Below, piece by piece: positions 4,738-27,809 of a stretch of DNA of 64,000 nucleotides. Source of the DNA: Steromphala cineraria. Its lineage: Eukaryota > Mollusca > Gastropoda > Trochida > Trochidae. The DNA lies in assembly GCA_916613615.1 (NCBI GenBank), contig OU744731.1:54938289-55002288 (forward strand), in the 5' to 3' direction. The translations under genes were made by a program, and so were the position numbers. Each line of letters starts with the position of its first letter. Positions within the stretch are counted from its first letter, which is position 1. The notes beneath the pieces are model-generated. The model was not told the DNA's origin, searched no databases, and saw only the letters and a program-made list of their open reading frames with translations.

Positions 4738-7700
4738 TCAGTCAGCTTCTGTGAAGCCCTGAGCCTCTACGTAATCGACTGCCTTCTGCTTCACTTTCTC
4801 CACCAACTTGGAGTCCCCGTGCTTCCTCTCAAACTCCAGATACTTCTTGAAGAAGAACTGCATCTTTTTAGAGGACATCTTCATGTGAATCACCCTCTCA
4901 AACAGCGACCTGAAGAGTAAACAGTTACAACTGGTCAATAGCGGGTATGAAAACTAAAACTCTTGCTCAAGAGATCTGATTAGCTACGATTAGAAAATAG
5001 TTGGCTTTGAATAACAGTGTATGAAACAAGCCTGAAGGCTAGCCAGCCAAGAGTAATATTTTGATTATTTTAATGGTAAAATTGAAGAAAGACCTTAATT
5101 ATGAAACAATCACAATTATTGTTAGTAATTATAAGAAAACTTACCTCTAAACCAACCTTGACTTATATCTCTCTTTCGGAGAGATCGTACAGAGTGTGAA
5201 AAATAAATTATTTTTAGTGGTCTGTGTGTTGTTCTTCCTGAATTATCTCCCCTTGAGTTATCTCCCTTGGATTTTCAAACTCAGCTGTCATTCTATTCGA
5301 TGTAAAGAGAGCTGGATAACGGGGAGGAGGGAGGGAGTAATTCGTTGGTTTAGAGGTAAGTTTTCTTATAAATACTAACAATAATTGTGATTGTTTCATA
5401 ATTATTGCAAAAAAACTTACCTCTAAACCAACATTGACAGAATACCACGTAAGGAGGAGGGTATCCAGCCCTCATTAAACGGTAGAATTCATCTCCAAAT
5501 TAGCGGATTCTCGCTTAATTTATCAGAATAAGGGGAGATAATTCTTAAGAAAACGGTAAATTCCATAATTTTCATCCCAAAATCACCCAATTAACGGTAA
5601 TTTTTGCCGATCTTTCGAGGAGAATGAAATATAACAGTCCCAAATCTTAAGAATGGGTCTTAGGACCTCAACACGAACTGGAGAAATACCCCAAAATAAA
5701 AGGGCAAAATACGTAATTCTGGGTGAATTCGGGAGAGCTAACCCTTAAGCGGGATTTAATATCGGAATTCACATAATTTCAAGAACCTGTACTCTCCACT
5801 CTGAACTAAGTTACAGGGCAAGGAAGGTGCTGAGGAGGATTAATATTCAACTTGAAGGAATTAGTATTCCCAAAGAGTGATTATACCAGTACCACCACAA
5901 CAAGAACTAACAGGTTCAGGGAAATTATGCCCACCTTGGGAAATGGTTGAAGTCTACCATCTATGTTGATAGGTCGCAACTGGAACAACGCGCCCTCGGG
6001 AACCTCCCCCTTGCGATGAGGATAGGTCCCTAAGATAGGCCCTGGTGAAGGAACTAGAGGACTTCCACTGACAGGAGGCTACAATCTGGTCGATAGATAC
6101 GGACTTCCAAGCCGCCAGCGAGGTGGACAGCGCCCAAATTTCATGAGGAGAAAACTTGGAATCCACGGACTCCTGGTCTGCTGTGGAATAGGCTAAGGCG
6201 ATGGTCTTGTGGAGCCAGGACACAATCGTGTTCTTGGTAATTTCTGTGGCTAGAGCCAGCTTGCAGGGAATAAAGAGGCGCCTTCAACCATTCCTGATGG
6301 AATGAGTTCTGTCTAGATACCATCGTAGAACTCGAATCGGGCAGAGGAGGCGCGCCTTGTCCTTAGCGTCAGCTGGAACAGGGAGAGCCGGAAAGGAGTA
6401 CACCCTGGCCCCTAACGGACCTGAGACAGTAGACTGGTTCTAAGCGAGGAACTCAGACAAAGCTCTAAAGAACACTAAGGCATATTTGTGGGCAAAGTCA
6501 ATAGAAGAGACATCTATGGCATGTAACTCCGAGATTCTAGCGGCAGAGGCAAAGGCAATCAGAAGGCAGTCTTCCAGGCCAGGAACTTGAGAGATGTAGC
6601 GTACAAAGGTTCATAAGGCGCTCGTTGTAAAGACTGTAGCACGTGCAGCAAGTCCCATTTGGGGAAGGTGATAGATTTTATGTCCTGCAACTTATGGATT
6701 TCAACAGTCTCGTGAGGGTTATGTCAGCTCCAATGGATAGGCCTTGCAGTTCAGATACGGAGGCAATGGCAATGGCAGATCTGTAGCCTTCAATAGTGCT
6801 GGCTTTCAACTTGCGATCTTGGCGTAAGTGGTTAAGGAAATCTGCTATCATAGGTATGGAAAGCAGGAGACCAGCTTATCCTCTATCTCCTCTCCACTGC
6901 TGGAACTTGATCCACTTATGGTCATAGAGGGCAGAAGTGCTAGGTCTGATTGATCTTGAAATAGATCAGAAGTGTCCTGCGCATAGCTGCGCTCCTGCAG
7001 CGCTCTCTGGATATTTTCCAAACGTGAAGATTGAAGGATTGTAGGTTCACGTTCTCCGGGCTGCCACCTCGGCTGTTGGAGCAGATTCCACCAAAGGGGG
7101 AGTTGGAGCGGAGGTTCCAAGAGAAGATCGAGCAGCAATGGGAACCATGATCTTTTGGGCCATGTTGTGTAGCCTGACCTTGTTGAGGACTTCCGGTATG
7201 AGCTTGAAAGGGGAGGAACACGTAAGCTATGAGGTTCTCCCAAGATATTGACAAGGCTTCCACGGCTACTGCCTGGGGATCTGGAACTGGGCTCACGTAT
7301 GTTGGAGTCTGAAGTTCCATGACTTGCGGATGGATCGTCCATTCTGAGGACGTGATAAGCTTCTGACGAGACAGTTCAGCTTCCCAGGAATGTGTCTGGC
7401 TTGTAGCGTTATGGACCAAGCGTCTATCAGAATGTAGAGATCCCTGGTTAGTTGCATCGACGGGGCTGATCTCATGCCTCCCAGCATGTTAATGTAGGCC
7501 ACTACAGTTGAGTTGTCCGTTGCTATCAGTATGCTTGAGCCCTGTAGAGAGACTTTCCAAGAGCGAAGCACCAAGATCACCGCTTTTATTTCTAGCAGAT
7601 TGATGTGAAGCTGTGAGTCGACTTGGTCCCAAGAACCGCTCAGGGTGAACTGCATCCAGTGAGCGCCCAAGCCCTGGTTCGACGCATCCGTGTAGATCGT

Positions 7701-10700
7701 GTGACGCGGAGGGGGAAGAGTGAAAGGACAACCCGTCATAACATGCACACTGGAGCTCCCGGCAGACTACCTTCGTTTGGGTGATCTTGGAATCCAGGGA
7801 GAGGTGGCGACAACTGTTTACCCAGGATTGAATGTGGCGTAGATTCAGGCGGCCTCTGGAGGTGAACGATTGGATCCAGGTGAGAGATCCGAGAAGGGAC
7901 ATCCACATCCTGAGAGAATGCGTCTTGTTGCTGTTCGATAACTGTAGGATGAGAGCCTGAATCGAAGTCCAGCGGGATTCCGACAGGGCAATAGTGGCTG
8001 AGGTCGTATCTAACATGGCTCCCAGGAACATGATGCGAGACGACGGTATGAGCTCCGATTTGTCCTGATGGATAATCTAACCCAGGTGTGAGAAAACATG
8101 TATGACCAGATCCATATGATGTAAAGGATGGCTTGATCCTGATGGCGGAGCAGGAAGTCGTCAAGGTACCCATGGATGAAAACATAGCGAAGGTGCAGGA
8201 ATTGAAGGACAGGAGCCTTAACTATGGTAAAGAGCCAAGGTGCCACTGAGATTCGGAAGGGGAGCACTTGGAACTGGAAGCGGCGGCCATTGAGCGCGAA
8301 GCGAAGATACCTCCGGGACTTGGGATGAATCGGGATGTGCAAGTAGTCATCCTTTAAGTTGAGTCTTGCGAACTTGGAATGCGGGAGGATCAGCTTGCGG
8401 ATGTTGTTGAGAGACTCCATGGTGATCTTGGGAGGCCTGCTTAGGAATGATTTGTTGAGCACCTTGAGATCTATAATCATCCTCATTTCTGTCATGTCTT
8501 TTTGGGTACCAGAAAAACGGGAGAGTAAAAGCCTGGAGATTCGTCGGCGGGATCCAACTCTGTGACAGCATTCTTTTCCAGTAGCTGCACGATGGCTGCG
8601 AGCGTGGCTTGAAGATTTTTTCCCTGGAGGAAAAACCTTTTTCCCTGTGGATGAACGGCAGTCGGGGGAATTCAATCCCACTGAAGGATATATCCCGAGG
8701 CTATGATCGACAGGATCCACTGATCGTTGGTGATAGTCTCCCAGTTCTGAAGGAATATCCCCAGTCGGCCCCCCACGGGCGAGAGAGAGATCGGCTGGGG
8801 AAAGGGAATCGTTGAAGACAAGTCGATGGACGGAAGCGGTCGTAAGGGTTGGTTGTGTTGACGTGACGGAGCATGGCAGTCAACGTCTGTAGCCCCCTTT
8901 TTGTCCATGAAAGGATCTTGATTGCTCCTTGTTGGTGGACCTTGGCTGCTCTCTGGACTGAGGGGGGTGAAAATCTCTGCGTCCCCGATGGCCGCCCCGG
9001 TACTGCAAGGATGGCGGAGGAGGGGCAGACTGTATCGACGGAGGGTTAGGCCTAGGGTTGCTGTTCCCGCGACGCTGACCATGGAAGGAACCCCTCGATA
9101 GTAAGGCTTGGGTCAGCTTCAAGTTGAGTGACTTAGAGGTCATGGCATCCTGTGACCCTCATCCCCATGCGAAGCCCATGCGCTGGGCGCCCTGGCATTC
9201 TCGAGTGGGTCACGAGCAGTTGAACTGCTGGGCTCGTGCCGGCCGTGGAAAGCATCGGGGTCGCGACCCGTGCAACCTTGGCTAGGCAGAGGAGCAGAGA
9301 CAACCGCCCGCTCCACCGACATTCGGGTAGGGGAGTCAGGCCGCGTGCGACTCGTTGATTGGTTGGCCTCCAAGGCAGTGAAGCGTTCAGCAGACTCCTT
9401 CTGAGTGGCAGCCATAGAAGAGGTTAAGGTGGCTAGCATGGTCTTAATTTGATCTAGCTCTGAGGGCTTTGGCTCAGGAGTAGAAGCGGGAGGGGTTTTG
9501 GACTTCTTACTAGCCGTCGGGGTGGACTTGGCCGTAGCCTTACGCTTAGGGGTCTTAGGCTTGGTCCTAGTGTTGTGCATAACTTGCCAGTCGTCAAGAG
9601 TTAGATGATTGCACATAAGACATCGCTTGGTAAAAGTGCAAGAGGACTTATCACAACAAGCGAAACACAAAGAATGAGGGTCACCTTTACACAGGTATCG
9701 CTGACATTCTACACACTTCTCCTGAGTGGAGGACATAATGGAGAGTAGTAATCAACACGCCAGGAAAAATCTCACCCAAGTCAACTTCCAGGAAAACACA
9801 TGTAATCCTTTAGAATCACAAGAATAATTCACGGGAGAAGTAATCCAAACTTGAGTAACAAAGATTCACACTAAGCACGACCGTACTCGCTGCGTACAGA
9901 GAAAAGAATGACAGCTGAGTTTGAAAATCCAAGGGAGAACACTCAAGGGGAGATAATTCAGGAAGAACAACATGCAGACCACTAAAAAAATTATTTTTCA
10001 CACTCTGTGCGATCTCTCCGAAAGAGAGAAATAAGTCAATGTTGGTTTAGAGGTAAGGTTCTTAGCAATAATTAACTACCAGCCTCGATCTATTTCATAC
10101 ACTATTTCATTCTGTTTTCTTATTATTTGCATACAGATTGTATCATGTTGTATTTGGATATCATGTAACAGCTCTTACTGAAATCGTCTTATAGGAAATA
10201 TTTCAGATCCTGCAATACTTGTTACACAGTAGGGAAGAGGATATATATCTTGCTTTAAGATAACTTCTAAACCCTGTCATACGATGTTGAAATGTGGCTA
10301 TGTTACTTCTTCTCACCTTGCATCATCCAGTTTCCCGGCCTTGACCACCATGTCGATGTAGACAGACCAGAGGTCAGTTCGCTTCGGGTAGTTGGTGAGA
10401 ATGTTCTCGAACATGGTGCAGCCCCGCTGTGCGTCACCGTACTTGTACTCCAGTTGGGCAAACTTGGAGATCATCTCAATGTCTGTAATCAGTTCAACAT
10501 TACCTACTTACATTCATAACTACATAGCTTCACAATAAATAAGATAAGCCATCTTTTATTATTTGTGTTGACTTTAGTCTTACCCTGTCTTTACCCTTCA
10601 GAAACTTCACACAAATATGCTTATGTGCCTATATCACTACATAATCTCACTATCAATGATAGGCCTTGTTTTGGTACTTGTGGTGACATAAATCACCAAT

Positions 10701-13273
10701 TCAAACCAGTAAGAGGTTGTCCACTTTAAACTCTAGCCAGCAAACAAAAGTCAACAATGGCTTTGAGAAGAATAAAGAAATTGGAATAATTAATGAGAAA
10801 TATTTTTTATGGGTTAAAATCTTGAAAGCAGCAACAACTTATCACAGATTGTTACACTCTTGCATGATAAAAGTTTCAAATCCAAAGAACTCATTTTTCA
10901 TTTAACGTGCAGAGGACAAACCATACCTCTACGTAGTCAAGATCATTGAGATTAAACTATTTGACGATAAATGAGGTTGTGAGAGCTACTCACGGTCCCT
11001 ATCTTCTAGACACTTGAGACAGCGCTGGAGAAGTTTGCGGGCTGGCTCGACACGTTTGTTCCTGAAGAAGAACTGCCCGAAACCAGTCCACACACTCTTG
11101 TCTTGACTGAACTTCTTACACATTACGTTGTACAGCTTCTCTGCCTCCTGTGTACACACAAAGCACTGGTGAGCACAGGACAATGAAAAATGATTACTTA
11201 TCTAACAAATATATTCTTCCATCATCACCAAATTTACAATGACTGAAAAGCGTCATTACTTATCCAGACTTATAACTTTTACTTAACAAGTGGTGACTGT
11301 TAATCAAATGCTTCAAAAATCTTATACTGTCAACAAATGTAATTTCATACAAAACCCTTACCATTTTCATTGGAATCAAATTTGATGAATCTGTTTGGAA
11401 GCTTTAATTACAATAGCATTTGTTGGATTGGAATACAAGTGTCAGGGGTTTGTAAATAGATGTTTATCCTCGAGAAAGTCTGTTATATGGTGCCTATTCA
11501 ATAATAAAATCATAAAATGAAGTTGTGAAACTATTTCATAACAAGATGTGTTTGTGAAACACGAATGCCCCCGGATGCATCCTGCTCGCTGTGTCAAGGT
11601 CAAAGTCACAAGGTCAAATGTCATGGTGTAACTGAAAGGTCTCATCACAAGGGATCCATATGTCAAGTATCAAAGAGCTAGCTCTGACCAATCAAAAGTT
11701 ATGACCAAGGTTAAAGTTTTTGTGGACAAACGGACAGACGGAAGGACGGACGGAAAAGGTCAAATATCATGGTGTCATCTGAAAGGTCTCATCACAAGGG
11801 ATACACATGTCAAGTATCAAAGACCTAGCACTGACAGTATAGAAACTATAGCTAAGGTTAAAGTTTTCATAAAAGGCTCGCTGTGTCAAGGTCAAGGTCA
11901 CAAGGTCAAATGTCATGGTGTCATCTGAAAGGTCTCATTACAAGGGATCCATATGTCAAATATCAAAGACCTAGCTCTGACCAATCAAAAGTTATGACCA
12001 AGGTTAAAGTTTTTGTGGACAAACGGACAGACGGACGGACAGACGGACAGGTGAAAGACGATAAACCCCCGGAATCTGCGATTCGGGGGCATAAAAAGCA
12101 AAATCTTGACTTTAGACAACTCATGTGTTAAGAATGTTAAAATTGACCTCCATCTTGTCACTGCCGATGTAGATCTGCGCCATCTGCTTGTAGACTCTGA
12201 TTGGCTCGTTCTGCTGCACCGCCCGGTCAAACACGGCCTTCACAGACTCCGCCCCTCCGTACATGTTCTCCACATTGAGGTACGCCCCCCACACGTTCAG
12301 CTTCTCCTGCTCCTCCCTGGGGACAAGAACAGCTTATTGTACAACTTCTTCTCCTGCTTGAGGCTCTAAATAGAGCTTCATCTTACAGGGTCTCTTTTTT
12401 AAGGGACAATAAGAGCTTATTGTGCAACTTCTTCTCCTGCTCGAGGCCCTAAATAGAGCTTCATCTTACAGGGTCTCCTCTCTAAGGGACAATAAGAGCT
12501 TATTGTACAACTTCTCCTGCTTGAGGCCCTAAATAGAGCTTCATCTTACAGGGTCTCCTCTCTAGGGGACAATAAGAGCTTATTGTGCAACTTCTTCTCC
12601 TGCTCGAGGCCCTAAATAGAGCTTCATCTTACAGGGTCTCCTTTCTAAGGGACAATAAGAGCTTATTGTGCAACTTCTTCTTTGAGAACCTTCATGGAGC
12701 TATAGGCACCCAGCTCACGAGGTATCAGCAAGATAAACATTTAAAATAAGACATTGCCTTTGTCTCACGACACTTTGAAATATATTCTCCTGCTTGAGAA
12801 CCTAGATAGACTAGACTATGTAACTCATCAGGTATCATCTCAAGTTGTCAAAATGTCAAATGATATGAAATAACCTATATACTTAAAATACTGCTTATTG
12901 TACAACTGACAATTTAACTGTCAACACCACACAAGAAGCTTCTACTGCTGATCTGTGGGAGACAACATCAAGAACAGCGCATTGTTCAACTGATGAGATG
13001 GTAAATGTCTGCTTCAAGTTGAGTCAAATCCCCTCTGAAGGAAAGAGTGATTACAAGTATGTATGAAAGTAAAGGAGGCATCTGTCACCTGAAGGAGATG
13101 GTTTTGAGAGCTCTCTCCGCCACGGCCCGAGCCTTATCTATCTCGACGGTCTCCAGGTGGTGCGCCATGTAGCGGGTCCACACCAGGGAACTGTTTGGTG
13201 ACTGGAGAGTCAGTCGGTCGAAGTCCTCGCTTGTAAGGGGCACCTGTCCTCCCTCCAGCTGCTGCCTCTCATA
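4738..13273 (-). CDS. PDCD11 C-terminal HAT-repeat exons (five exons)
   Basis: These five exons (13273-13089, 12316-12148, 11147-10994, 10482-10317, 4909-4738) encode the half-a-TPR region that closes every RRP5. Visible family landmarks are [80 protein letters not shown] and [20 protein letters not shown]. This region folds into helical repeats and in yeast is required for small-subunit (A0-A2) processing. It is complete and highly conserved, so the gene does not look like a decayed pseudogene at this end. The last intron (4910-10316) is filled by a DIRS element. Confidence 0.93.
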
Positions 13274-16200: not shown

Positions 16201-19200
16201 TATGAAAATTACTCGTTGAATGATTATGACTTTGAACACAATGATCTTGCAACCCTAAAAACTATTTCACTTCAAAACATCCCCGGCTATGTAGTTTTTG
16301 AATAAAATTCTGGGAACCCTGGAATTACCCCTAAAAGGCACAACAGCACTATACAGTCGAACCTTGTTTTGGTTACAGGTGAAAATTGTCCGGATAGCAA
16401 ATCGTCTGGTTAACTGGGTGATTTTTCTTAAGAAATAAAGACACATTGTTTGAAAAATCTGTGTCAGGGTATCCGAGGTTCGACTCTATACTTCCATACC
16501 AAATTTGAAGTGTGGAAGTCATTTGGTATTTATATATACTCCGGAAACAACACAAAGTCCAAAAATTGGACCGTTTTTGGTCAAAATAAAAAAAATTATT
16601 CAGAACATTGAGCTGAAACCCCTAAAAGGCACAACAGCACCCTATAGGCTACGTCCATACCAAATTTGTAGTTTCAAAGTGGTATAGTTTTTCAGTTATG
16701 CTCCGGAAACGAGACAAAGTCCAAAAATCAGACCGTTTTTGGTCAAAATTTCAAAAATTATTTGGACCATTGAGCTGAAACCCCTAAAAGGCACAACAGC
16801 ACCATATAGGCTACTTCCATACCAAATTTGAAGTTTCTAAGTGGTATAGTTTTTCAGTTATGCTCCGGAAACGAGACAAAGTCCAAAAATCAGACCGTTT
16901 TTGGTCAAAATTTAAAAAATTATTTGGACCATTGAGCTGAAACCCCTAAAAGGCACCACAGCACCATATAGGCTACTTCCACACCAAATTTGAAGTTTCT
17001 AAGTGGTATAGTTTTTGAGTTATGCTCCGGAAAAGAAACAAAGTCCAAAAATCTGACCGTTTTTGGTCAAAATTTCAAAAATTATTTGGACCATTGAGCT
17101 AGAACCCCGAAAAGGCACCACAGCACCATATAGGCTACTTCCATACCAAATTTGAAGTTTCTAAGTGGTATAGTTTTTGAGTAATGCTCCGGAAACGATT
17201 TCGGACGGACGGACGGACGGACGGACGGACGCACGGACGGACGCACGGACGGACACGCGGAGCGCTATATACCCCCGACTACGTCGTAGCGGGGGTATAA
17301 TTATTTTTTATTCACACTCTGTACGATCTCTCTGAGGGAGAGAAATAAGTCAATGTTGGTTTAGAGGTAACCGTTTTCGCAATAATTAACTTACTCCGCG
17401 TTACAGGCAAACAGCGGTACAACGAGCAAGTAAGTTGGCAGAAAAACAAAGAGTTGACTGCAGCTATTTATCATCTAAAACATCTTTCTGCAACTATTGG
17501 ATCATTAATCACATTAAATGTTTGTTTTGTGTTGTTTTTGTTGACAATAATACTGAATAATGCTAAAAACAAACAGATGTGATTTCATAAAAAGCAAAGA
17601 ACATATCATCCTAATTAAAAGTTATATACAAAAAATCTTGTGTTTTTGTGAGGACTTACAATATCAACACAGAAACAACTAGAAAGTGTTTTTACCCGTA
17701 AAAACAGATGTCTCCCCCTTCCTCAAATGCTCCAAACCTCTAAACAATACTATCATAAAGCACCATTAATGTTCTCTGTATAATTGTATCAACTCCACAA
17801 TTGCAGCAAACAAAATATTCAAAATTCTAAATGATTTGATACTAAAACACTTGAAAACGACCAAGTCCAAATGGTTGCCATGGAAATAAAACAAAACAAA
17901 AATTTAAAATTTTATAAGCTCCTAAAGGCACATGTACATGATATGGAAAGACAATATACCAAGTTTGGTGATGATCTGTCACATAGTTTTAGATATATGC
18001 TCCGGAAACGAAATGGGAACGCCAACGCCGACGGGAACTCAGCTAAAACCAATATGTCTCCCAATATTTATATCACGTACAGCAAGGTTAAGCTTGTTTA
18101 TATTGCAGACAAATTATTTACATTGAAATAATCTACAAGTCCGTTATCAGCTGGGAAATCTTAAATTACATTACGCTGGTTTGGGGCCTCAGCAAAACCA
18201 AAGCCGGCCTTGATATGGATAAACAATTTAATATCACAGCTCCCCACAACACCATATTAGAGTTAACACTGTAGCGAATCCTTTATTCGATGTAAGGAGT
18301 ACATCTTGTTCATTGTTTTGTAAACATGGCTTTGCAAATCGAGTCACGATCGAGTGAACATTTACGATCTTTTGGTTTAATTAAATTATACAAAGGTGGA
18401 AATACTTTATTTTTTGACACATTGTTTAAATTTTATATGGCGGTATGGTCAACAATCACAATTGGGAGCCTTGCATCGTAAGTTGAAACCAATAATGAAT
18501 GGAAACAAACACGTTGTTTTCAACACTTTTGATGGAAGTTAGATAAAGGTTTGGCTTATCGTTTTTTGGGGTTTTTTTGTTAACAAAGCTTGAAACATTG
18601 ATGAGATTAGTTGTATATTTAGATGTTAACATTATCAGTTTTACTCACAAAGCAATTTATATAAATTTTGGGAGCCACAGTTTACCCCGCGGTACAACCG
18701 AGCCCGCGTTACATCAAAGGGCGATATAGCGAGGGAACACTGTACCATCTTCAATAGTGAATACTTACAGCAAATATTGCCTTTTCTTCTTCCATTCTTT
18801 CCCTGCGGAGTTCTGATCCAGTTTTCTTGGCAACTTTCTGACATACAAAAATTGAAATGTTAATTGAAAATAACAATCTAAACCAATTTTGCATCCAAAA
18901 TACAGAGAATAATTAACCATTCACATAGCAATTTTTTTTAAATTGGTCATTCATGAACATTGCAATTCCTTTTTCGTCATCAATAAATATCTCACTTGAG
19001 GATAATTAAGCATTCAGTTTGCAAACAATTTTCAAAAATCATTTGTCATACCAGAACATTGACATTTCTTTATCATCAATTAAGTTCTCACTTTAACCTC
19101 TGTGTCCTTTATAAGTCAGAAAAACTATTATCATCATCAACAAATCACTAACTTTCTCCTCTGTGTCCTCATCGCTACTATCGTCACTGTCCGGTGTTCC

Positions 19201-22200
19201 GGGGGTACAGAAATCTTCACTCCAGGAGAACCCAGTGGAGAGCGACAGCCGGGCGGGATTCTTACCAACCTTTGGAACCTGAAGGGAACACTGAATTATC
19301 AACATTGTTTCAACGTTGTTGTCCATGTCTTTTTTTTAAATAATCAACAGAAGAAACAAGTGACAGATGAATTATCTATTGATGTGAAAAAGCACCTGTT
19401 TTATTAGATCTGGTGGTAATGTAAATTGCACATAATTAGAAGTAAGTCTATGACTGATATGTAATTAGAAGTAAGTCTATGACTGTTATGTGTTGAAGAA
19501 TAAGTGAGTGCAGTTACCCTTTTTTTGGCCATTGAGATGCATGTACAAAGAGTATTATATGACTTTCCATGGCATACTACATTGCCTAAAGTATTGCCCA
19601 GGGAATAAGTGTCAAAAACAAAGTGTCATGGTCACAATATAATATTCTGTTTTTTACCATTGTCACAAAATACTCAAAACCTACTTCTCAGCATAGGCGG
19701 ACTAGCCGCTGGGCCCTATAGAAGGCAAATTCTAAGACAAATGGTGATGTCAAAGCATTGTTTATAACAAGATGTCACTTTGAAAAGGTGATTTTTTTGC
19801 CCTTATGTATCATATGAAAATTATGAAACTCGATATGACTGCCCTCAAAAAGTAATTAACAATTATTTCATATAAATTCTCCCCAACCTACCTTCAAATC
19901 ACCCTCATCATCAGAGTCAGACAGTTTATTGACTTCTACTCCACTGTCAGTCTCCTCAGGGGATTTCTTCCCAGGAGTTCTCTCCCCTTTCTTCCTCTTG
20001 CTTGGAGTCTCAACCTCTACCGGTTTCTTGACCTTTTCTTGACCTTTCTTCTTCTTGGCTGCTGGAGTCAAATCTTCATCCGAATCTGAATCTGAAGAGT
20101 CTGAATCTGAATCATCTAAATCTGAGTCTGAATCACTGGATTCTTCACTTTCATCTTTCTTCTGCTTTTGGGACACCTTTTTAGTGTCACCAAACAGACA
20201 AGTTTTCACTTTGTTAGACGAAGAAGGAATGTCTGCGTCAGAGTCGGAATCTTCAGAATCCGATTCAGAATCATCATCACTCGATTCACTTTCATCGCTT
20301 TCATCTTTTGCTTTTTTGGCTGATTGTGATATTTCTTTCCTTTTGGAAGGAATTTCTTCATCTTTCATCTTTTTCTTCTTCTTAGCCGACAATGACATAT
20401 CTTCTTCCATTTCAACATCAGAATCAGCCTTCTTCTTCTTCTTCTTGGAGGACACTGACATGTCTGATGTCTCTTCATCATTCTCGACTGCTCCTTTCTT
20501 CTTCTTCTTCTTTGCAGATGACAATTCTGTGTCTTCCTTCATCGATTCTTCTTCTTTGAGCTTTTTCTTCTTCTTATCACTCTTTTCACTATCGACTTGT
20601 TCAGCCTTTCCACTTTTCTTGGACTTTTTCTCACTCTTAGGAGTCTCTGTTACCTCGTCATTCTCCAGTTTCCTCTTCTTTGCGGACTTAGTTTCTAATG
20701 CGGTGTTCTCCTTTTCTTTTGTCTTCTTCTTCTTCTTTGATGATGTTGTATTTGTGTCTTCACTGTCACTCTCACTTCCTGGTCTGAAGCAGAAAATATT
20801 TACTTCATTATGATTGGTCAATTTGCTGCAGGCAACAACACAATGCAAATGTGCCACTAGAAAGTAAAGACAATTTAACAATCTTTCCCTCTGTGCATCA
20901 GAAGGTTAAAATAAAACTTTCCTTAAGAAAAAATACTTTGAAATACAATTGAAAGTCCATATTCAACAAGACAAGGATGTTTTTAAGTTCTAATTCCTCT
21001 TATTTTTGTAAATAGTCAAAGAATAAGTAAGTAATAAAATAAGAAACTTGTAAGTATCTTACTTGTGAAGACGGACAAGGAGGACATGGTCGACCAAATT
21101 GAACCCAATCACTTTACAGCTGAAACAAAGAAATCACAAGATCACATGTACAATTAAAGCTAAACAAATAATGATAAAATGTTTTGTTTGAGGTAAAAGC
21201 ACAGACCATGGTCTAGATTCTCAAATTTTCATTGAACTAAGATAGTCGTAGGTCAATATCAATGTATGATAGTTAAGACTATCTTAGCCATAAAATATAG
21301 CTAAGTTGGTGGAGCAAACACCTGTAAGTTTTGAGTTCGATTCCAGACTGCATCACACAAAAATAGGTTAAAAATTGGACCTCATTATTAAATAACATAA
21401 AACATCCTTTGGTGTCGCACTGTGACCGTCTAGTGCCATTATGAGCTTTGTAATGCGGACAATAAAGAATTTCTAATACAATATAGAAGAGTCTCTCCCT
21501 TCTTGTTTAAGTTGTACTCATAATTGATATGGCTGCTTTATTTCAAAACCCTTACCTATGTTTTGTTCCGAACTTGAATGTTTTGTGCAAGGGAGTCTTG
21601 TAGTCACATACTTTGACCAGATTTGAGAGCTGGAATAAAATGTTTGAATAAGCAATCATGAAAGAAATTGTTTCTCTTCCTTGGGTCTACCACTGAGTCC
21701 TACAGAGAAAGGATCCTTTGTCTTGTATGTTAACAAATATGGTCACAAAATGAACATAGAGTTAATATGTGACGTTATGGAGAACTCAATCATAAGAAAA
21801 TAGTTACATATGTAAAATTTTAAGGATTCACAGTTCTTCAAAACACACAAATACCAAGAGCGTTTGATGAATCAATAGACTAATATCAAAATAAACAATA
21901 CACCTACAGTGGCAAGGGCCTTCAGACCACCCTCCATGTTGAAATACACGGCCTTCTTAAGAGCGTCTAGTGCTGACACCTGGTGGAAAGTCTTCCTGTC
22001 GGCGAGCACTGATAGGGTCTCGTACACCTCCCAGCAGGTGGAACCCGCCAGATGGGGGAGAAGGGACAGGTAGATGGTCGAGTTGTCGTTCAATGTGTAT
22101 AGCAGAGTCGCGGACACCTGCAAACATACAACTCTCAGTGAGACATGGAGATAGCATATTCCCTCTTATGATCAGGACTTTTTACTGTCTCTGTTGGGAG

Positions 22201-25200
22201 AGAATGAGAGAGAGAATAGGACTTATAAGGAAGATAACTTAAAGGGGGAAAGATTGAATTGACATTTAAAATGACACCTGCAAACATACAAGTCTCAATG
22301 AGACATGGAGATAGCGTTCTCTCTCACAACAGAGGTTAGATCAGGATTTTTTACTGTCTCTGTTGCGAGAGAATGGGAGAAAGGATAGGACTCATAAGGA
22401 AGGTAACTTAAAGGGGGAGATTGAATTGACGTTCAATGTGTATAGCAAAGTCGCGGACACCTGCAAACATACAACTCTCAGTGAGACATGGAGATAGCTT
22501 TCCCTCTTCAACAGTGGTAAGATCGGGATTTTATTACTCTTTTTCCTGAATAGGAGAGATTGGGAGATAGTAAAGAAAGTTAAGGTTGTTAACAAGAAGA
22601 AATGCACAGAGGAAAGTTAATAAGATCTAAAATCTTATGGGGTTTTTGCATACAGCTCTAAGATTAGGGCGGAAACTTAAGTAAGAGGCTTGAACACCAA
22701 GTTTCTTGAAATAATGGCTAGAAAAGTGATTTCATAAACTTAGTGAGAAAGAGCTGATTTCCTGGAAGTGGAAGGACTAAATAAACATCGATAAGGATAG
22801 ATCTTGCTCTTGGAATGATTGAAGACTTTTTTATCCACACCTATACCATTCTCGTTCATTTAAACCTAGAACACAACACTTCAATAAACTCCATCTAGTC
22901 ATGGAGGATGAAGAGAGTTTTGACAGGATTTGTTTGAACCATTTCACGCCTACAAGCTAGACGTCAGACAAAAAAAAATTATTTGTTACTGGTTTCTTTT
23001 GAGTGAAGGAGCAATGCACTTTTAGCACAGCTTACCTGATCGCCGGGAGAGAATGACTTCTTGTGCTTGTACTGGGTGGTGTGTGTCCGATGTACGTAGC
23101 CAACTTTACCATTGAAGGACACTGATAAACCATCCTTCAGGACCTAGGACAAGAGAATATTGCATTGAGTTTTAATTATTCAGAAGTCAAGAAAATTGGA
23201 TCCGCCCTTGATGTTATTTTTATGTTAAGACACAAATATTTCATATGAATCATTATTATATTCAATTTATTCTTTAACAGACAGCAGATCATGTAGCATC
23301 AATTGTAGTTTCAATTCTCTTTTTACTCTACCAAATAATCAAAAGGGTTGTCTCAACACTGACATTATTACCGGAAGCCCATACAAGAGGCAACAACCAC
23401 TTACACAAGATATTGGAATAACATTACAACCACTTAATGATAAAATTCATTGATAAGGTTTTTCTGAAATTTTGTTTAACTTACTTTCAACCAAAATGAA
23501 CAAAACTCATTAAATTCCACTGACAAATAAATGGATATCAAGCAAAAATTAGTAAGTCCTCTCTCAACAGATACAACAGCAGCACCCACCTCTTTCACTG
23601 TACCGGTCACCTGCAGGCCAGATTGTAGAGTAGTGGAGTCCAGCTCACTGTCCTTCGGCATCTGAAATAATAAAGAAACACCTGATTGTACATCCTTTCA
23701 TTGACATCATACTGGTATACTCTTGGAATGTACAATAAAAACCTTCTCAGGCTTCAATCACAAGGAAGAAAATCAAATGGTAGCAACCTTACATGTTTGC
23801 TTCAATGGAAGTTAATTATTCAAGCCTTAACACCATTCCTCTGGTCAGGAGATTTCAAGATCATAATCACAAAATAATGTTAAGAAGGAAAGCTAGAGTT
23901 AACCCTTTTAGTTCTATAATGTACATTGTTTGTTCTATTCTATCTCTTATATGTAGTATCTACCCTAGTGTTCATGACATAAAGACATTTGCACAAACAA
24001 ATGGGTGAAAGTTTTGCCGCACCATCAACAAATAGATCAAATATACTTCCCAGCCCAAAACCTCCGTGACAAAGTTGCTCTTTCAAAGCAAGTGATGAGT
24101 AACATTACCATAGGCTCTATTATATTTCTGACAGATACACTGATTGTTCTTCCTGTTTTAATGTTTTACCTTTGATCAAAACATTAAACATTTACACAAC
24201 CAAGATGGTGAAAGTGGAACTGCTCATACCTTGACCTTGGCCAGCTTGTGAGGGTTGATGCTGACAGTTACCAAGTTGCCTTGTACGGAGAGAACCTGGC
24301 ATCTCAACACCTGGCCAACGTGGATCGGGCTGTCTGCAATAATGGGTCAACAGTAATGCATGAGTCTTTCTTGGAGAATAGATATACTGGACAATGATTA
24401 ATAGTCAAGGATACATACAGTCTATTCACTCTACTGTAACATGACTTGTAACAAATACTTGATTCTGAATGGCTGATTATTAAGATTTCCCTACGTTGAA
24501 TAGCAATGAACACCCGCAAATACTATACCGTCTATTTAATTAAAAAATATCCCTCACTTACTGTGTTCAGCAGTCTGATAGGTGATCCTTATTAACAACA
24601 ATCAATTGAATTATAAAAAATAGAACATACCCTTTTTAAATGAAAAGAAAGATCTTTCAATTAAAATTTCAACAACAACAATTTTTTTTTTTTTTTTTAA
24701 TTTAATGCCCATTTCATATTATTTTATGGACGCAATCAATGGATGCACTAACCATTGTTGAGCTTGCTGATGTACTTGTGAGCATGTTTGTCGGGGAGGA
24801 AGACCCTGGTCCCGGCCACGCCCACCTCCAGTGTGTAGCCATGCTCCTCACACCCCGTCACTGATCCACACAGCATCTGCAGGCAACATTAAATTATTAT
24901 ATGAAGATATTTATATGGCCTCTATACCAGGTGCTGATAATCTGCTCTAAGTGCTGCCTACATCATTATCCTGAAGGATTTAAAAGAAACATTAAAGCAA
25001 CAAGCTGTATACCTTGTTTTTAGTTTCTCATTATGGATGAGACTGAGAGCAATGTGGATGAAGTGCCTCACCAAGGGACCCAACACAGTATGAGACCCAG
25101 GTCACAAATGTTTGGTGTCTTCACCTGGATTCTTATTCAGGCCGGCATGGTAACAACCACACCATTGTGCTCTACTTCTCCTAAGTTAATGAAAATTATC

Positions 25201-27809
25201 CAAACTCTTACCATTCACATGATAAAAATAAATAAATACCAAAATAATCTTTGATAAATTTGTTGTCAAGATCGCAAGACCAAATTTGTCGGGATTTTCA
25301 TAAGAGAAATGTATACAACTCCAATGTACTACAATATTTACCAATCCCTCCTGAATGTGAGATTTGACGAGATCTTTGTTGACGACGCTGGGGTTCATGC
25401 TGAGGAATATCTTCTTCTTTGATCCGGACCGGATCTTGATGGCGGCGACTCTACAGGGGAAGATCATCCCGGCCTGGTACATGGCACTCAGGGGGACAAC
25501 TGCCTGTTGGTCAAGATCACTGTTTTCTTTAAACATTCAAAAACTAACTTGCAAGGTACTTAAAAACTGTCTCTGCTATTAACATCACTAGCTTGCATCA
25601 ATGCGTTCAACTTTAACTTGTTGAACCTTGAAATAGCTCCCTGCCTTTTATAACATAATACTAATCATTCATATTCCTCAATTATAACTATTTATCACTG
25701 ACAAAATGAGCTTCAAACTTACTTTAGATGGTCAGAAAACCTGTACGAGTAACTTAGCCCAAACACCTCAGAAACAAGATGAACCTCATTTTTCAATAAA
25801 ATTTACCTCAATCATTCTCAATAAAGGTCATCAATCAGTAATCAACAAGAGCAGAAAGCTAAAGCAGTCATGACTTATCTCTTTGCTTATGAGTCAATAA
25901 CTGCATAAATAACTTCATGTGAAATTAACTAATGTGATCCCCAATTCAATTTCAATAATGTCATATAATAGAGCTTATGGCTTTGACATCACAAATAATG
26001 AGCTTCTAAGTATGTTTCTGATAACTGCTGCAAAATATTTTCTTTTCATATTTTTGACATTTTACTGTCTTTACTATACCATGATTACTCAAGAACATTG
26101 TGTACTATTTTCAACATCTCTCACCCCTTCCTCACTATCCTCCTCCTCATCACTGTCCCGACTTGTCAGTCTCTTCAGCTGTTCAGTGTACGTGTCCGAC
26201 ACCGCCGTGATCGGAACTTCCCCCTGGAGACCCCCGGGCAGGTCAAAGGTCAAGCTGTACTCGTCGACCCTTGCCACACAGCCCAGGATGTGCATCCCGA
26301 CTTGCACCCTCTGTCAGTTAGAAGTAGTGGTTAGTAGTGGTCATATAAAAATGGATTGTACTCTACATCATTAACTTGGATTTGTTTTCTCAAGTGGCAA
26401 AACAAAAGGGGGGATTCAAGGTCCTTCCAGCACCCAGACCCATGGAATCCGTTAAAAGGGTCGACCATTGTCATTTTTCCAATTTTTTTATCTTGCACCT
26501 CAAAGGGGACCTTTGGAGATCATATCAAAATATTTCAGAGACTTCAATGATTTTGCCACTAGTTTACTTCAGATATATTTCCCATATTTAATTCTAATCA
26601 TAGCAAAACCGTTCTTTGTTTCAATTTAAAATCTGAGGGCAAAAACTAAAAGTAAGAGTGCATGTTTTGCACTAATGAATAAAGAAGCGTTGTCCTATTA
26701 CAGTAATTAAACTCACAGTGAGTTAATGTTTTGCAGTTAGAAATAAGGAATACTTGACATATGACAGTAATTAAACTCACAGCAAAGTGAAGTTTCTCCA
26801 CTCTACCCAGACTTTCTTTCTTATCATGGTCCACTTTCTCTGCTTTCTTGTTGCCTTTCTTCTTCCTGTTTCTTCGCTTCTTCTTCTTGTTGCCCGACGG
26901 AGATTTGTCGTTAGATTCACCATCTGCCTTAGACTTCATTTGGACCTTGCTATTATTTTTACCTTTCTTTTTCTTGCTTTTTGTTTGTGAACCATTCTCT
27001 TTGTCTGAAGTCTTATTATCTTTGTTGTTTGGAGTCTTTGGTTGACCTTGACTAACATTTTTTTTCTCTTGATTATTTTCATTGTCGTTCTGTTTCTTCT
27101 TTTGTTTATTTTTCTTCTCATTGGAACCTTTTTTTGGTGTCAATGTCTCTGAAGTAGTTTTCTTTTTCTTTGGTTCTTCATTCCCAGTCTAAACAAAAAG
27201 CAATGAGATATGTTAATGTATGAAATAAGCTACCGTTTGACATGAATACAGGCTTAAGTTAAATAATGCAAGGTATGAATAATTATCCTATTATGCTACA
27301 CCTAAATGGTCATCCAGTTATTTACTAATTGTCATTTGAATTCACTACACAATTATGATATTAACTTTATCTGATAGAAAGTTTAAATTATGAGGAAATA
27401 ATGATAAAAGTTTGGTGGCTGTAAAAGCATTTTGAGACCTCAGATAGTTGCTGTGTAATGCTTTATCAATTGTTCTATGGTTTTGAATTAGGTAGCCTGT
27501 GCCATGCTATATGATAACACATGAAATCATTTCTTTAGGATATACCCTCATTTCAATGAAGTTGTAAATGAGTTAAAAACATTTTGATAACAAGTTTCCC
27601 CCGGAACCAATTTTTATCAATAAATATTGTAAAATTAAATGCAATAATTATTTGATTTGAATTATTATAAATTTCATAAACCGATTGTCATTATTGTTTG
27701 TACACCACACCTTGAAGAGATCCTTCTCTGTATTTTGTAGTTTCCTCTTCTTTCCCTTTTGTTTTGCTCCACCCCGGGGGAAATCCCCCTCTTCTGTTTG
27801 TTGTGGCAT
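4738..27809 (-). CDS. PDCD11/RRP5-like rRNA biogenesis protein, 19 coding exons, short S1 array
   Basis: RRP5/PDCD11 is a nucleolar pre-rRNA-binding factor needed for early cleavages on both subunit pathways. Coding exons, 5' to 3': 27809-27711, 27188-26781, 26310-26125, 25503-25342, 24876-24753, 24333-24230, 23661-23590, 23143-23036, 22117-21908, 21629-21556, 21119-21063, 20783-19892, 19278-19153, 18837-18769, 13273-13089, 12316-12148, 11147-10994, 10482-10317, 4909-4738. Every junction has AG/GT and joins in frame, totalling 3537 nt (1178 residues plus stop). The N-terminus has the family motif DFPRGGAK (residues 9-16). Four S1 domains follow (about 170-534), then a Lys/Ser-Asp linker (535-832), the conserved [10 protein letters not shown] segment, and HAT/TPR repeats (about 898-1178). 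Vertebrate and yeast orthologues have 12-14 S1 domains and 1700-1870 residues, so about ten S1 domains are missing here. Introns are rich in mobile elements. Confidence 0.88.
5144..5299. repeat. DIRS left inverted terminal repeat
   Basis: It matches the reverse complement of 9899-10060 with few differences: cttacctctaaaccaac, tctctctttcggagagatcg, acagagtgtgaaaaataa, gtcattct. A 47-bp outer extension (5097-5143) matches half of the internal complementary region. Confidence 0.85.
5335..5435. repeat. DIRS internal complementary region
   Basis: This segment reads ggtttagaggtaagttttct ... cttacctctaaaccaacatt. One half is the inverse of the left outer edge (5097-5155). The other half resembles the right outer edge. 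In DIRS elements such a region is thought to template joining of the ends into a circle. The same structure recurs at 13770-13860. Confidence 0.8.
5954..6900 (-). pseudogene. DIRS tyrosine recombinase, broken
   Basis: Fragments in overlapping frames match the phage-integrase-fold recombinase of DIRS elements. The C-terminal part reads [20 protein letters not shown] then [14 protein letters not shown]. In active members the His of this HxxR box is followed three residues later by Arg; here the codon is TGG (Trp), a likely C-to-T change. The final [10 protein letters not shown] box holds the catalytic Tyr. Several frameshifts separate the N-terminal part, so the enzyme cannot be functional. Confidence 0.75.
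7293..7748 (-). pseudogene. DIRS RNase H domain
   Basis: The fragment contains the RNase H-like motifs [14 protein letters not shown] (first Asp), INLLEIKAV (Glu) and [13 protein letters not shown] (second Asp), in the order usual for DIRS and Ty3-like RNase H. It follows the reverse transcriptase in another frame, showing frame loss. The region after it (7200-7420) keeps [19 protein letters not shown], typical of the DIRS segment between RNase H and recombinase. Confidence 0.8.
8010..8720 (-). pseudogene. DIRS reverse transcriptase
   Basis: The fragment shows reverse transcriptase blocks in order: [29 protein letters not shown] (block A), [20 protein letters not shown], and the catalytic YxDD box as [10 protein letters not shown]. 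It is separated from the RNase H by a frameshift and the N-terminal part is interrupted, so no full polyprotein remains. Orientation and position between gag and RNase H fit DIRS. Confidence 0.85.
8880..9736 (-). pseudogene. DIRS gag-like protein, internally shortened
   Basis: The N-terminal 198-residue frame (9736-9140) starts with a Cys-rich box ([20 protein letters not shown] ... [12 protein letters not shown]), followed by a Pro/Lys/Ser-rich stretch. An overlapping frame (9143-8880) is Arg/Gly-rich ([25 protein letters not shown]), as in nucleic-acid-binding Gag tails. Compared with the related 14350-15549 frame, the central region is missing. Start ATG at 9736 follows the terminal repeat leader. 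Confidence 0.7.
9899..10060. repeat. DIRS right inverted terminal repeat
   Basis: Inverse of 5144-5299; reads gaatgacagctgagtttgaa ... cgatctctccgaaagagaga ... ttggtttagaggtaagg. It ends next to ordinary PDCD11 intron sequence containing gcaataattaac. Confidence 0.85.
11540..12095 (+). repeat. ACGG-tailed interspersed repeat (pearl-like) in PDCD11 intron
   Basis: This repeat opens with aaacacgaatgcccccgg and closes with gcgattcgggggcataaaa, a short inverted end pair. The middle holds two to three tandem cores of about 170-185 bp with gtcaaggtcaaagtcac, tctgaaaggtctcat and agttatgaccaaggttaaag. Tracts of (GGAC)n follow at about 11728-11755 and 12024-12050. It is a different family from the 1.7-kb and 16-kb arrays but has the same architecture. 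The in-frame peptides are artefacts. Confidence 0.75.
12318..12690. repeat. 83-bp tandem repeat, 4.5 copies, abutting PDCD11 exon
   Basis: Units of 80-84 bp start with gggacaataagagcttattg at 12402, 12485, 12565 and 12648. A first variant at 12318 begins inside the splice acceptor of the 12316-12148 exon. Each unit contains ccctaaatagagcttcatc and acagggtctcctc. The array lies in the intron immediately upstream of the acceptor (minus strand). Confidence 0.9.
14350..15549 (-). pseudogene. DIRS gag-like open frame, 399 residues
   Basis: The longest transposon frame in the window. It is Ser/Thr/Pro-rich, with [20 protein letters not shown] and [19 protein letters not shown] matching the first element's gag. 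A more globular part includes [20 protein letters not shown] and [14 protein letters not shown]. Its true N-terminus, a Cys-rich box ([15 protein letters not shown] region, 15810-15640), is in another frame after a frameshift. The C-terminus runs into former recombinase 3-prime sequence. Because only gag persists, it may be a cis-element passenger rather than a functional protein. Confidence 0.65.
16125..17298 (+). repeat. Pearl-like repeat (about 165-bp core x5) inserted in DIRS terminal repeat
   Basis: Ends are gcggctcacatacccccgcc (near 16141) and gtcgtagcgggggtataatt (to about 17300), a short inverted pair. About five cores of 160-170 bp carry aaaggcacaacagcaccata, ataccaaatttgaagtttct, tatgctccggaaac and gaccgtttttggtcaaaat. 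A (GGAC)n/(GCAC) microsatellite at about 17199-17262 follows. The element interrupts the DIRS right terminal repeat, which continues on both sides. Confidence 0.85.
16354..16486. mobile_element. 133-bp pogo-like MITE
   Basis: Inverted ends cagtcgaaccttgttttggt and tatccgaggttcgactc are flanked by TA (16352-16353 and 16487-16488). It interrupts the first pearl-like core between gcac and cttccatacc, which are adjacent in the other cores. No coding capacity. Confidence 0.75.
17871..18060 (+). repeat. Short repeat fragment within the Tigger-like MITE region
   Basis: The stretch atggttgccatggaaataaa ... gatatatgctccggaaacga resembles the cores at 16.2-17.2 kb and 29.7 kb (the shared ctccggaaacgaaat phrase) but is only a single degenerate unit. 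Its open frame of 86 codons is not conserved coding sequence. Confidence 0.5.
18769..19278 (-). CDS. PDCD11 exons linking the acidic linker to HAT repeats
   Basis: Two exons. The first (19278-19153) encodes [15 protein letters not shown] followed by an acidic tail [15 protein letters not shown]. It corresponds to the short conserved motif found in animal and fungal RRP5 between the S1 array and the HAT repeats. The second (18837-18769) encodes a basic/acidic helix ([19 protein letters not shown]). Both splice in phase 0. The intron that follows holds the four-level transposon nest. Confidence 0.85.
19892..20783 (-). CDS. PDCD11 giant NOPP140-like linker exon
   Basis: A single 892-nt exon encodes about 297 residues with no globular domain. 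At least eight basic clusters ([58 protein letters not shown]) alternate with Ser-Asp-Glu stretches that look like casein kinase 2 sites ([20 protein letters not shown]). The pattern recalls NOPP140/treacle. RRP5 proteins normally have an acidic/basic linker here, but this one is long and sits directly after S1 domain 4. Acceptor cttcag at 20784 and donor GTAGG at 19891 are clear. The opposite-strand frame is a shadow. Confidence 0.85.
21063..26310 (-). CDS. PDCD11 S1 domains 1-4 (nine exons)
   Basis: Nine small exons encode four S1 RNA-binding folds. S1-1 is [20 protein letters not shown] plus [20 protein letters not shown] and [13 protein letters not shown]1-2 is [49 protein letters not shown] and VTVSINP. 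S1-3 is [29 protein letters not shown] and [17 protein letters not shown]1-4 spans the end of the 22117-21908 exon through [20 protein letters not shown] and LLVRLHK. By residue order these correspond to the first four S1 repeats of PDCD11. The last one ends at a domain edge and the next exon is the linker. The intervening intron is only 279 bp, so no exon can be hidden there. Confidence 0.88.
22250..22500 (-). pseudogene. Tandem partial duplicates of a PDCD11 S1 exon and its splice acceptor
   Basis: Two degenerate copies of the intron-exon junction at 22117 lie upstream. One near 22276-22330 copies mainly the intron side (cacctgcaaacatacaagtc, gagacatggagatagcg). One near 22425-22500 includes the first part of the exon (ttcaatgtgtatagcaaagt cgcggacacctgcaaac). 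The second would splice like the real acceptor but soon hits non-homologous sequence, so it is a pseudo-exon in the intron. Confidence 0.8.
26781..27809 (-). CDS. PDCD11 N-terminal exons
   Basis: The first coding exon (27809-27711, 33 residues) opens [20 protein letters not shown], carrying the DFPRGG motif that begins RRP5 proteins. The second (27188-26781, 136 residues) is a Lys/Asn/Gln-rich, probably disordered segment ending in VEKLHFA before S1-1. An acceptor at about 27828 (ttgtcag) indicates a spliced 5-prime UTR. The start was chosen as the first ATG after that acceptor. Confidence 0.85.

Follow-up and report, generated by a model that had tools for sequence, protein, structure and literature searches.

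RRP5 acts in making both ribosomal subunits and is an essential gene in yeast. In Saccharomyces cerevisiae, Rrp5 comprises 12 S1 domains plus TPR and is built of two separable parts: the N-terminal part (S1-1 to S1-9) and the C-terminal part (S1-10 to S1-12 plus TPR) are reported to function in trans, with slower growth, the former being needed for cleavage at A3 and the latter for A0-A2 (PMC3991325). As described for the binding of yeast Rrp5 to 40S, removal of the first four S1 domains has little effect and removal of the fifth weakens it, while the last three are important for 40S binding and the sixth contributes to the binding of Rok1 (PMC4900678). The yeast N terminus presumably recruits Noc1-Noc2 (PMC10191850).

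The number of S1 domains varies among RRP5 proteins, a survey giving a range from one to fourteen (PMC11641769). Full-length animal proteins (RRP5/PDCD11), such as those of Gigantopelta, Lingula, Pecten and bonobo, have, where measured here, some 13-14 S1 domains and a linker close to 100 aa long. The RRP5 of the gastropod Steromphala cineraria shares with them the N-terminal FPRGG motif, the order S1-1 to S1-4, a charged linker bearing a GFSW-type motif and a complete HAT domain, but lacks S1-5 to S1-14 and has a linker of 313 aa. We found no published report of S1 loss in vetigastropod RRP5 in the open-access literature.

Gene structure and domain content of the short RRP5

The window, that is, the whole 64,000-nt stretch of DNA analysed, contains a PDCD11/RRP5 gene on the minus strand (27809-4738), at 54.94-54.97 Mb of chromosome 12. 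Rebuilt from the sequence, it consists of 19 exons forming one open frame of 1178 codons plus the stop, in which all introns are GT-AG and the exon phases agree throughout. The gene is intact, and it is the only RRP5 found. Its features, in window coordinates, are as follows.

Exon 1, 27711..27809, minus strand: start codon and N-terminal DFPRGG motif (FPRGG invariant in the model, Haliotis and frog)
Exon 2, 26781..27188, minus strand: long Lys-rich N-terminal extension
Exon 3, 26125..26310, minus strand: first part of S1-1 (S1-1 class HMM, E 6e-20)
Exon 4, 25342..25503, minus strand: end of S1-1 (S1-1 class HMM, E 1.6e-4)
Exon 5, 24753..24876, minus strand: S1-2 (S1-2 class HMM, E 1.8e-13)
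Exon 6, 24230..24333, minus strand: end of S1-2 (general S1 HMM, E 0.01, and alignment to Haliotis)
Exon 7, 23590..23661, minus strand: start of S1-3 (alignment to Haliotis; no HMM match alone)
Exon 8, 23036..23143, minus strand: S1-3 (general S1 HMM, E 1.6e-5)
Exon 9, 21908..22117, minus strand: end of S1-3 and start of S1-4 (45% identity to Haliotis rufescens residues 329-399, E 3e-14; no HMM match alone)
Exon 10, 21556..21629, minus strand: S1-4 (tblastn with Haliotis, E 0.25)
Exon 11, 21063..21119, minus strand: 57 nt, end of S1-4, final bases AA (S1-4 class HMM, E 0.042)
Intron 11, 20784..21062, minus strand: 279 nt, phase 2; expected site of S1-5 to S1-14
Exon 12, 19892..20783, minus strand: 892 nt, charged linker rich in Lys, Glu, Asp and Ser
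Exon 13, 19153..19278, minus strand: LSLSTGFSW motif, upstream of the HAT repeats
Exon 14, 18769..18837, minus strand: stretch before the HAT domain
Exon 15, 13089..13273, minus strand: HAT repeats
Exon 16, 12148..12316, minus strand: HAT repeats
Exon 17, 10994..11147, minus strand: HAT repeats
Exon 18, 10317..10482, minus strand: HAT repeats
Exon 19, 4738..4909, minus strand: final HAT repeat and stop codon

An initial annotation of this DNA had described an exon that ends where S1-4 ends and joins the linker exon in frame, a 279-bp intron that hides no further exons and a protein otherwise intact and in frame over 19 exons. The rebuilt gene model, with its 1178 codons and canonical splice sites, agrees with it on all three points. 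Exons 11 and 12 join in frame (phase 2/2) through the split codon AA+A, encoding Lys, and the splice sites of intron 11 read TCACAA/gtaaga at the donor and cttcag/ACCAGG at the acceptor. No long open frame is present on either strand of the 279 nt of intron 11, and there is not a single N in the whole window.

A general S1 profile derived from full-length animal RRP5s detected four S1 domains in the model, four in each Haliotis protein and 14 in the Gigantopelta protein. Position-specific profiles, which resolve 14 positions in the bonobo protein, identified those of Steromphala as S1-1, S1-2, S1-3 and S1-4, in that order. Given four S1 domains here and 14 in the full form, S1-5 to S1-14 (10/14) are missing. 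The loss claimed in the initial annotation, of about ten S1 domains and with a clean cut at a domain border, is thus upheld by the position-specific profiles, with S1-5 to S1-14 absent. The 247 proteins retrieved include 107 with a length of at least 1650 aa and an N-terminal FPRGG motif, and in these the number of S1 matches (cut-off above 10 bits) ranges from 11 to 15. Measured by an array of 12-14 S1 domains, the Steromphala protein, with four, would fall outside RRP5; considering the surveyed range of one to fourteen (PMC11641769), the S1 number alone makes it a variant rather than a non-member.

The N-terminal motif and the HAT domain are retained. The FPRGG motif lies at residues 10-14 of the model and is invariant in the model, the two Haliotis proteins and frog. 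The HAT domain is complete, residues 826-1175 aligning with residues 1380-1725 of yeast Rrp5 at 254 bits; it is 75.6% identical to that of Haliotis rufescens, and residues 910-1178 are 78% identical to Haliotis asinina RRP5. The linker, measured from the last S1 domain to the GFSW motif, spans 313 aa in Steromphala and 329 and 298 aa in the other two short proteins, while its median in full-length proteins is 101 aa and its maximum 143 aa (n=53; proteins of at least 1650 aa passing both motif patterns, Pecten, Mytilus and Liolophura being among those dropped). That the linker of each of the three short proteins is roughly three times as long as usual suggests that it may have a role of its own.

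RRP5 in other lineages and the timing of the probable loss

A database search with the S1 part of the model aligned the whole query part to the RRP5s of Haliotis rufescens (1105 aa, 48% identity) and H. asinina (1079 aa, 46%). Both of these database gene models encode S1-1 to S1-4, a long charged linker and a complete HAT domain, the same architecture as in Steromphala, and the junction between S1-4 and linker is as in Steromphala in both of the Haliotis proteins retrieved (2/2). They differ in that their Lys-rich N-terminal extension is shorter.

The RRP5 of the neomphaline gastropod Gigantopelta, by contrast, is 1810 aa long and has the 14 S1 domains. Using BLASTP, the Steromphala model matched Gigantopelta residues 38-446 (36% identity), 1423-1809 (58%) and 3-64 (35%), with further matches of the repeat or low-complexity type at 1004-1559 (20%), 1415-1787 (18%) and 1017-1057 (33%, 49 columns). 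The Haliotis proteins gave weak matches of 20-22% identity into residues 589-1167. The strong matches of all three short proteins are thus confined to the first 446 and roughly the last 390 residues of Gigantopelta, and between them lie only weak ones, again of the repeat or low-complexity type, with identities of about 20-22% or lengths under 50 residues. The initial annotation had taken bivalves as the relatives to be compared; the animal is a gastropod (Trochidae, Vetigastropoda). As for bivalve PDCD11, among the best 120 of 1114 matches, 11 of the 17 named bivalve entries are at least 1700 aa long.

Shortened RRP5s with an intact N-terminal motif and five or six S1 matches were also seen in a mite and fungi, and three of these proteins were mapped by position. 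Those of Halotydeus (mite) and Suillus (fungus) keep the N-terminal motif, the HAT domain and S1-1 to S1-6, and that of Allomyces (fungus) keeps the motif, the HAT domain and S1-1, S1-2, S1-5, S1-6 and S1-14. All three thus retain S1-5 and S1-6, whereas the vetigastropod form has neither and has fewer S1 domains. Three oyster-type RRP5s of about 1620 aa (Saccostrea and a relative) have 10 S1 matches; S1-9, S1-11 and S1-12 were not found in the one that was mapped by position. Several other short proteins were set aside as parallels. That of Tegillarca looks like an incomplete model with S1-8 to S1-14 only, and that of Pinctada looks incomplete, starting at S1-1 without the N-terminal motif and skipping Gigantopelta residues 930-1275. 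Those of Lytechinus, Latimeria and one of Xenopus tropicalis, which match only the later part of Gigantopelta, look incomplete as well.

Limpets present a separate case. The annotated RRP5s of Patella vulgata (519 aa) and P. caerulea (477 aa), among the matches listed, consist of the HAT domain preceded by a charged N-terminal stretch, and their last 275 residues are identical. No S1 domain was found in them by position-specific profiles (both species) or by Pfam (P. vulgata). They may be partial models, the product of a split gene or the result of a total loss of S1 domains. It is possible, and offered here tentatively, that gastropods dismantled the S1 array more than once, vetigastropods keeping S1-1 to S1-4 and limpets only the charged stretch with the HAT domain, or a split gene. 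If so, RRP5 would not depend on the S1 array as its core, and the essential work could be done by a HAT domain attached to a disordered, charged tail.

In a tree of the HAT domain, the model and both Haliotis proteins form one clade (100/99), while the placement of Gigantopelta is unresolved and 10 of the 20 inner branches are open. Because of this, the timing of the loss rests on the published species tree, which groups Neomphalina, to which Gigantopelta belongs, with Vetigastropoda and, in larger data sets, places Patellogastropoda as sister to both (PMC9048639). Considering that Gigantopelta has the full array, the simplest history would be a single loss in the stem of the sampled vetigastropods (two genera among the matches listed, Haliotis and Steromphala), after the split from Neomphalina and before Haliotis and the trochid diverged. 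Such a loss may in addition be useful to gastropod phylogeny as a rare genomic change.

The rate of change along this stem is uneven across the protein. On a species tree fixed by hand as a constraint, the stem branch of the short clade measures 1.43 for S1-4 and 0.87 for S1-3, and 0.41 for S1-1, 0.34 for S1-2 and 0.18 for the HAT domain. Relative to Gigantopelta, the path of the short lineage is 3.4 times as long for S1-3 and S1-4, and for S1-1, S1-2 and the HAT domain it is 1.5 to 1.8 times as long, the latter ratios indicating that the acceleration is partly general. Per-domain identities, calculated for the short form with the model and H. rufescens, follow the same lines. Compared with ten other animals, S1-4 averages 20-21% identity in these two, as against 31-33% in Gigantopelta, Pecten and Lingula, and S1-3 averages 27-30% against 34-38%; for S1-1 and S1-2 the deficit is small. 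Beyond the stem, the identity of S1-4 between Steromphala and H. rufescens is 45%, level with the 46% between Pecten and Mytilus. The domains adjoining the cut thus appear to have evolved fast at about the time of the loss and then settled, as would be expected of a working protein.

Search for distal S1 domains and a second RRP5 locus

The region of 264 kb around the gene was searched with S1 profiles, which, at E 0.05 or better, recovered six of the nine S1 exons that the gene retains; no other match was better than E 0.48. In tblastn searches of the same region with eight full-length donors (E up to 1), exons 3 and 5, encoding parts of S1-1 and S1-2, were matched by all eight. For the lost S1 domains, there was one match, with the Mytilus donor, 68 kb outside the window (E 0.17, 28% identity), which we took as chance.

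The search was extended to the whole genome (1,270,125,005 bases in 281 contigs). As a control, Gigantopelta S1-1 to S1-4 matched the RRP5 locus at E 3e-12, whereas Gigantopelta S1-5 to S1-9 and S1-10 to S1-14 found nothing better than E 5 and a frog S1-5 to S1-14 query gave no match. No S1 profile match below E 1 was present in the frames of the weak Gigantopelta S1-5 to S1-14 matches, and neighbouring frames have, by eye, the look of zinc-finger or retroelement genes. The Pfam profile PF00575 matched two places genome-wide, by eye eIF2-alpha and SRBD1, and missed all RRP5 exons; PF23459 weakly matched RRP5 exon 3 (E 0.12) and an SPT6-like frame (E 5.5), and no distal RRP5 domain. With full-length, HAT-bearing queries, no second RRP5 locus was found genome-wide at E <1e-3, a search of limited power. 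The Haliotis donor likewise found only the RRP5 locus at E <1e-3, its matches elsewhere being to the linker (E 0.035 and worse).

Genome-wide, the full-length donors recovered no more than one or two of the nine S1 exons that the gene retains, and the Haliotis donor four, so that power is limited at this scale, while that in the 264 kb is good. Within these bounds, the exons encoding S1-5 to S1-14 that the initial annotation had proposed to look for were not found. The diverged second locus that it had raised as an alternative is unlikely, given that only the RRP5 locus appears at E <1e-3 and that, in single-sequence searches of this limited power, Gigantopelta S1-5 to S1-14 match nothing better than E 5.

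Possible working of the short protein and surroundings of the gene

Taken together, we consider it very probable that the vetigastropod stem truly lost ten consecutive S1 domains (S1-5 to S1-14, about 965 residues), so that a charged linker now tethers the two modules at the ends of the protein. A collapse or misjoin that dropped S1-5 to S1-14 from the assembly, which the initial annotation had raised, is very unlikely because H. rufescens and H. asinina show the identical layout; in addition, intron 11 is ordinary, with good splice sites and no N, and the Steromphala assembly is described as built from long reads, scaffolded with Hi-C and curated by hand (PMC11074690). As RRP5 is essential in yeast, a deletion of this size might also mark a decaying pseudogene or a non-functional paralogue, yet the 19 exons have no internal stop, all splice sites are canonical, the HAT domain keeps its 75.6% identity to that of H. 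rufescens and no other RRP5 locus appears at E <1e-3, so that this reading is scarcely credible. Gene fission, with S1-5 to S1-14 made from a separate gene elsewhere and acting in trans, has in its favour that the parts of yeast Rrp5 complement in trans (PMC3991325) and that the genome-wide searches are of limited power, so that they may have missed a strongly diverged gene of this kind. However, the Gigantopelta S1-5 to S1-14 queries reached no better than E 5 against E 3e-12 for the matched S1-1 to S1-4 control, none of the weak-match frames matched an S1 profile below E 1, and PF00575 and PF23459 revealed no distal RRP5 domain. We therefore regard fission as improbable.

It is also conceivable, though rather unlikely, that the loss is real and the linker has no replacement role, the distal S1 domains having become unneeded after a change in pre-rRNA processing, such as a compact ITS1. 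ITS1 of Steromphala (18S to 5.8S, Rfam boundaries) measures 279-283 nt in five rDNA copies, of nine 5.8S loci found, a figure for a single species, and the shortened RRP5s of the mite and fungi show that other subsets of S1 domains exist. Against this, the roughly threefold length of the linker in each of the three short proteins suggests, without proving it, that it has a role. A true loss with a tethering linker has to contend with the contribution of the lost domains to binding in yeast.

Under a true loss with the two ends tethered, we infer that the short RRP5 works as two modules, a layout that it shares with yeast Rrp5 and its separable N- and C-terminal parts (PMC3991325). The N-terminal motif and S1-1 to S1-4 would serve the large-subunit side and the HAT domain the small-subunit side, while the linker of some 300 residues, probably disordered judging by its composition, would tie both modules together. 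The pre-40S, helicase and ITS1 contacts that the lost S1 domains make in yeast would most likely fall to the lysine-rich linker or to partners, unless they are no longer needed. A role of the short protein in the assembly of both 40S and 60S would follow from its orthology. In yeast, S1-5, S1-6 and the last three S1 domains are reported to have 40S or Rok1 contacts (PMC4900678); their counterparts, by position only, are missing in Steromphala. If the numbering carries over between yeast (12 S1 domains) and animals (14), vetigastropods would have retained the S1 domains that matter least to 40S binding and given up those with 40S and Rok1 contacts. A lineage without counterparts of the S1 domains that help to hold pre-40S particles in yeast would be a natural experiment on what replaces these contacts and which S1 domains are needed.

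Several other elements lie in and around the gene. Intron 8 contains a 169-bp tandem repeat (window positions 22113-22538) whose units, by eye, include decayed copies of the exon 9 acceptor and first bases. Introns 18 (about 5200-10050) and 14 (13600-18300) carry related interspersed elements, which, by eye, may be DIRS-like; one piece of the intron 18 element matches the reverse transcriptase profile PF00078, and two other scanned frames gave no Pfam match. Upstream of RRP5, on the minus strand at 36751-37161, an open frame looks, by eye, like the N terminus of the nucleolar protein NOP56.
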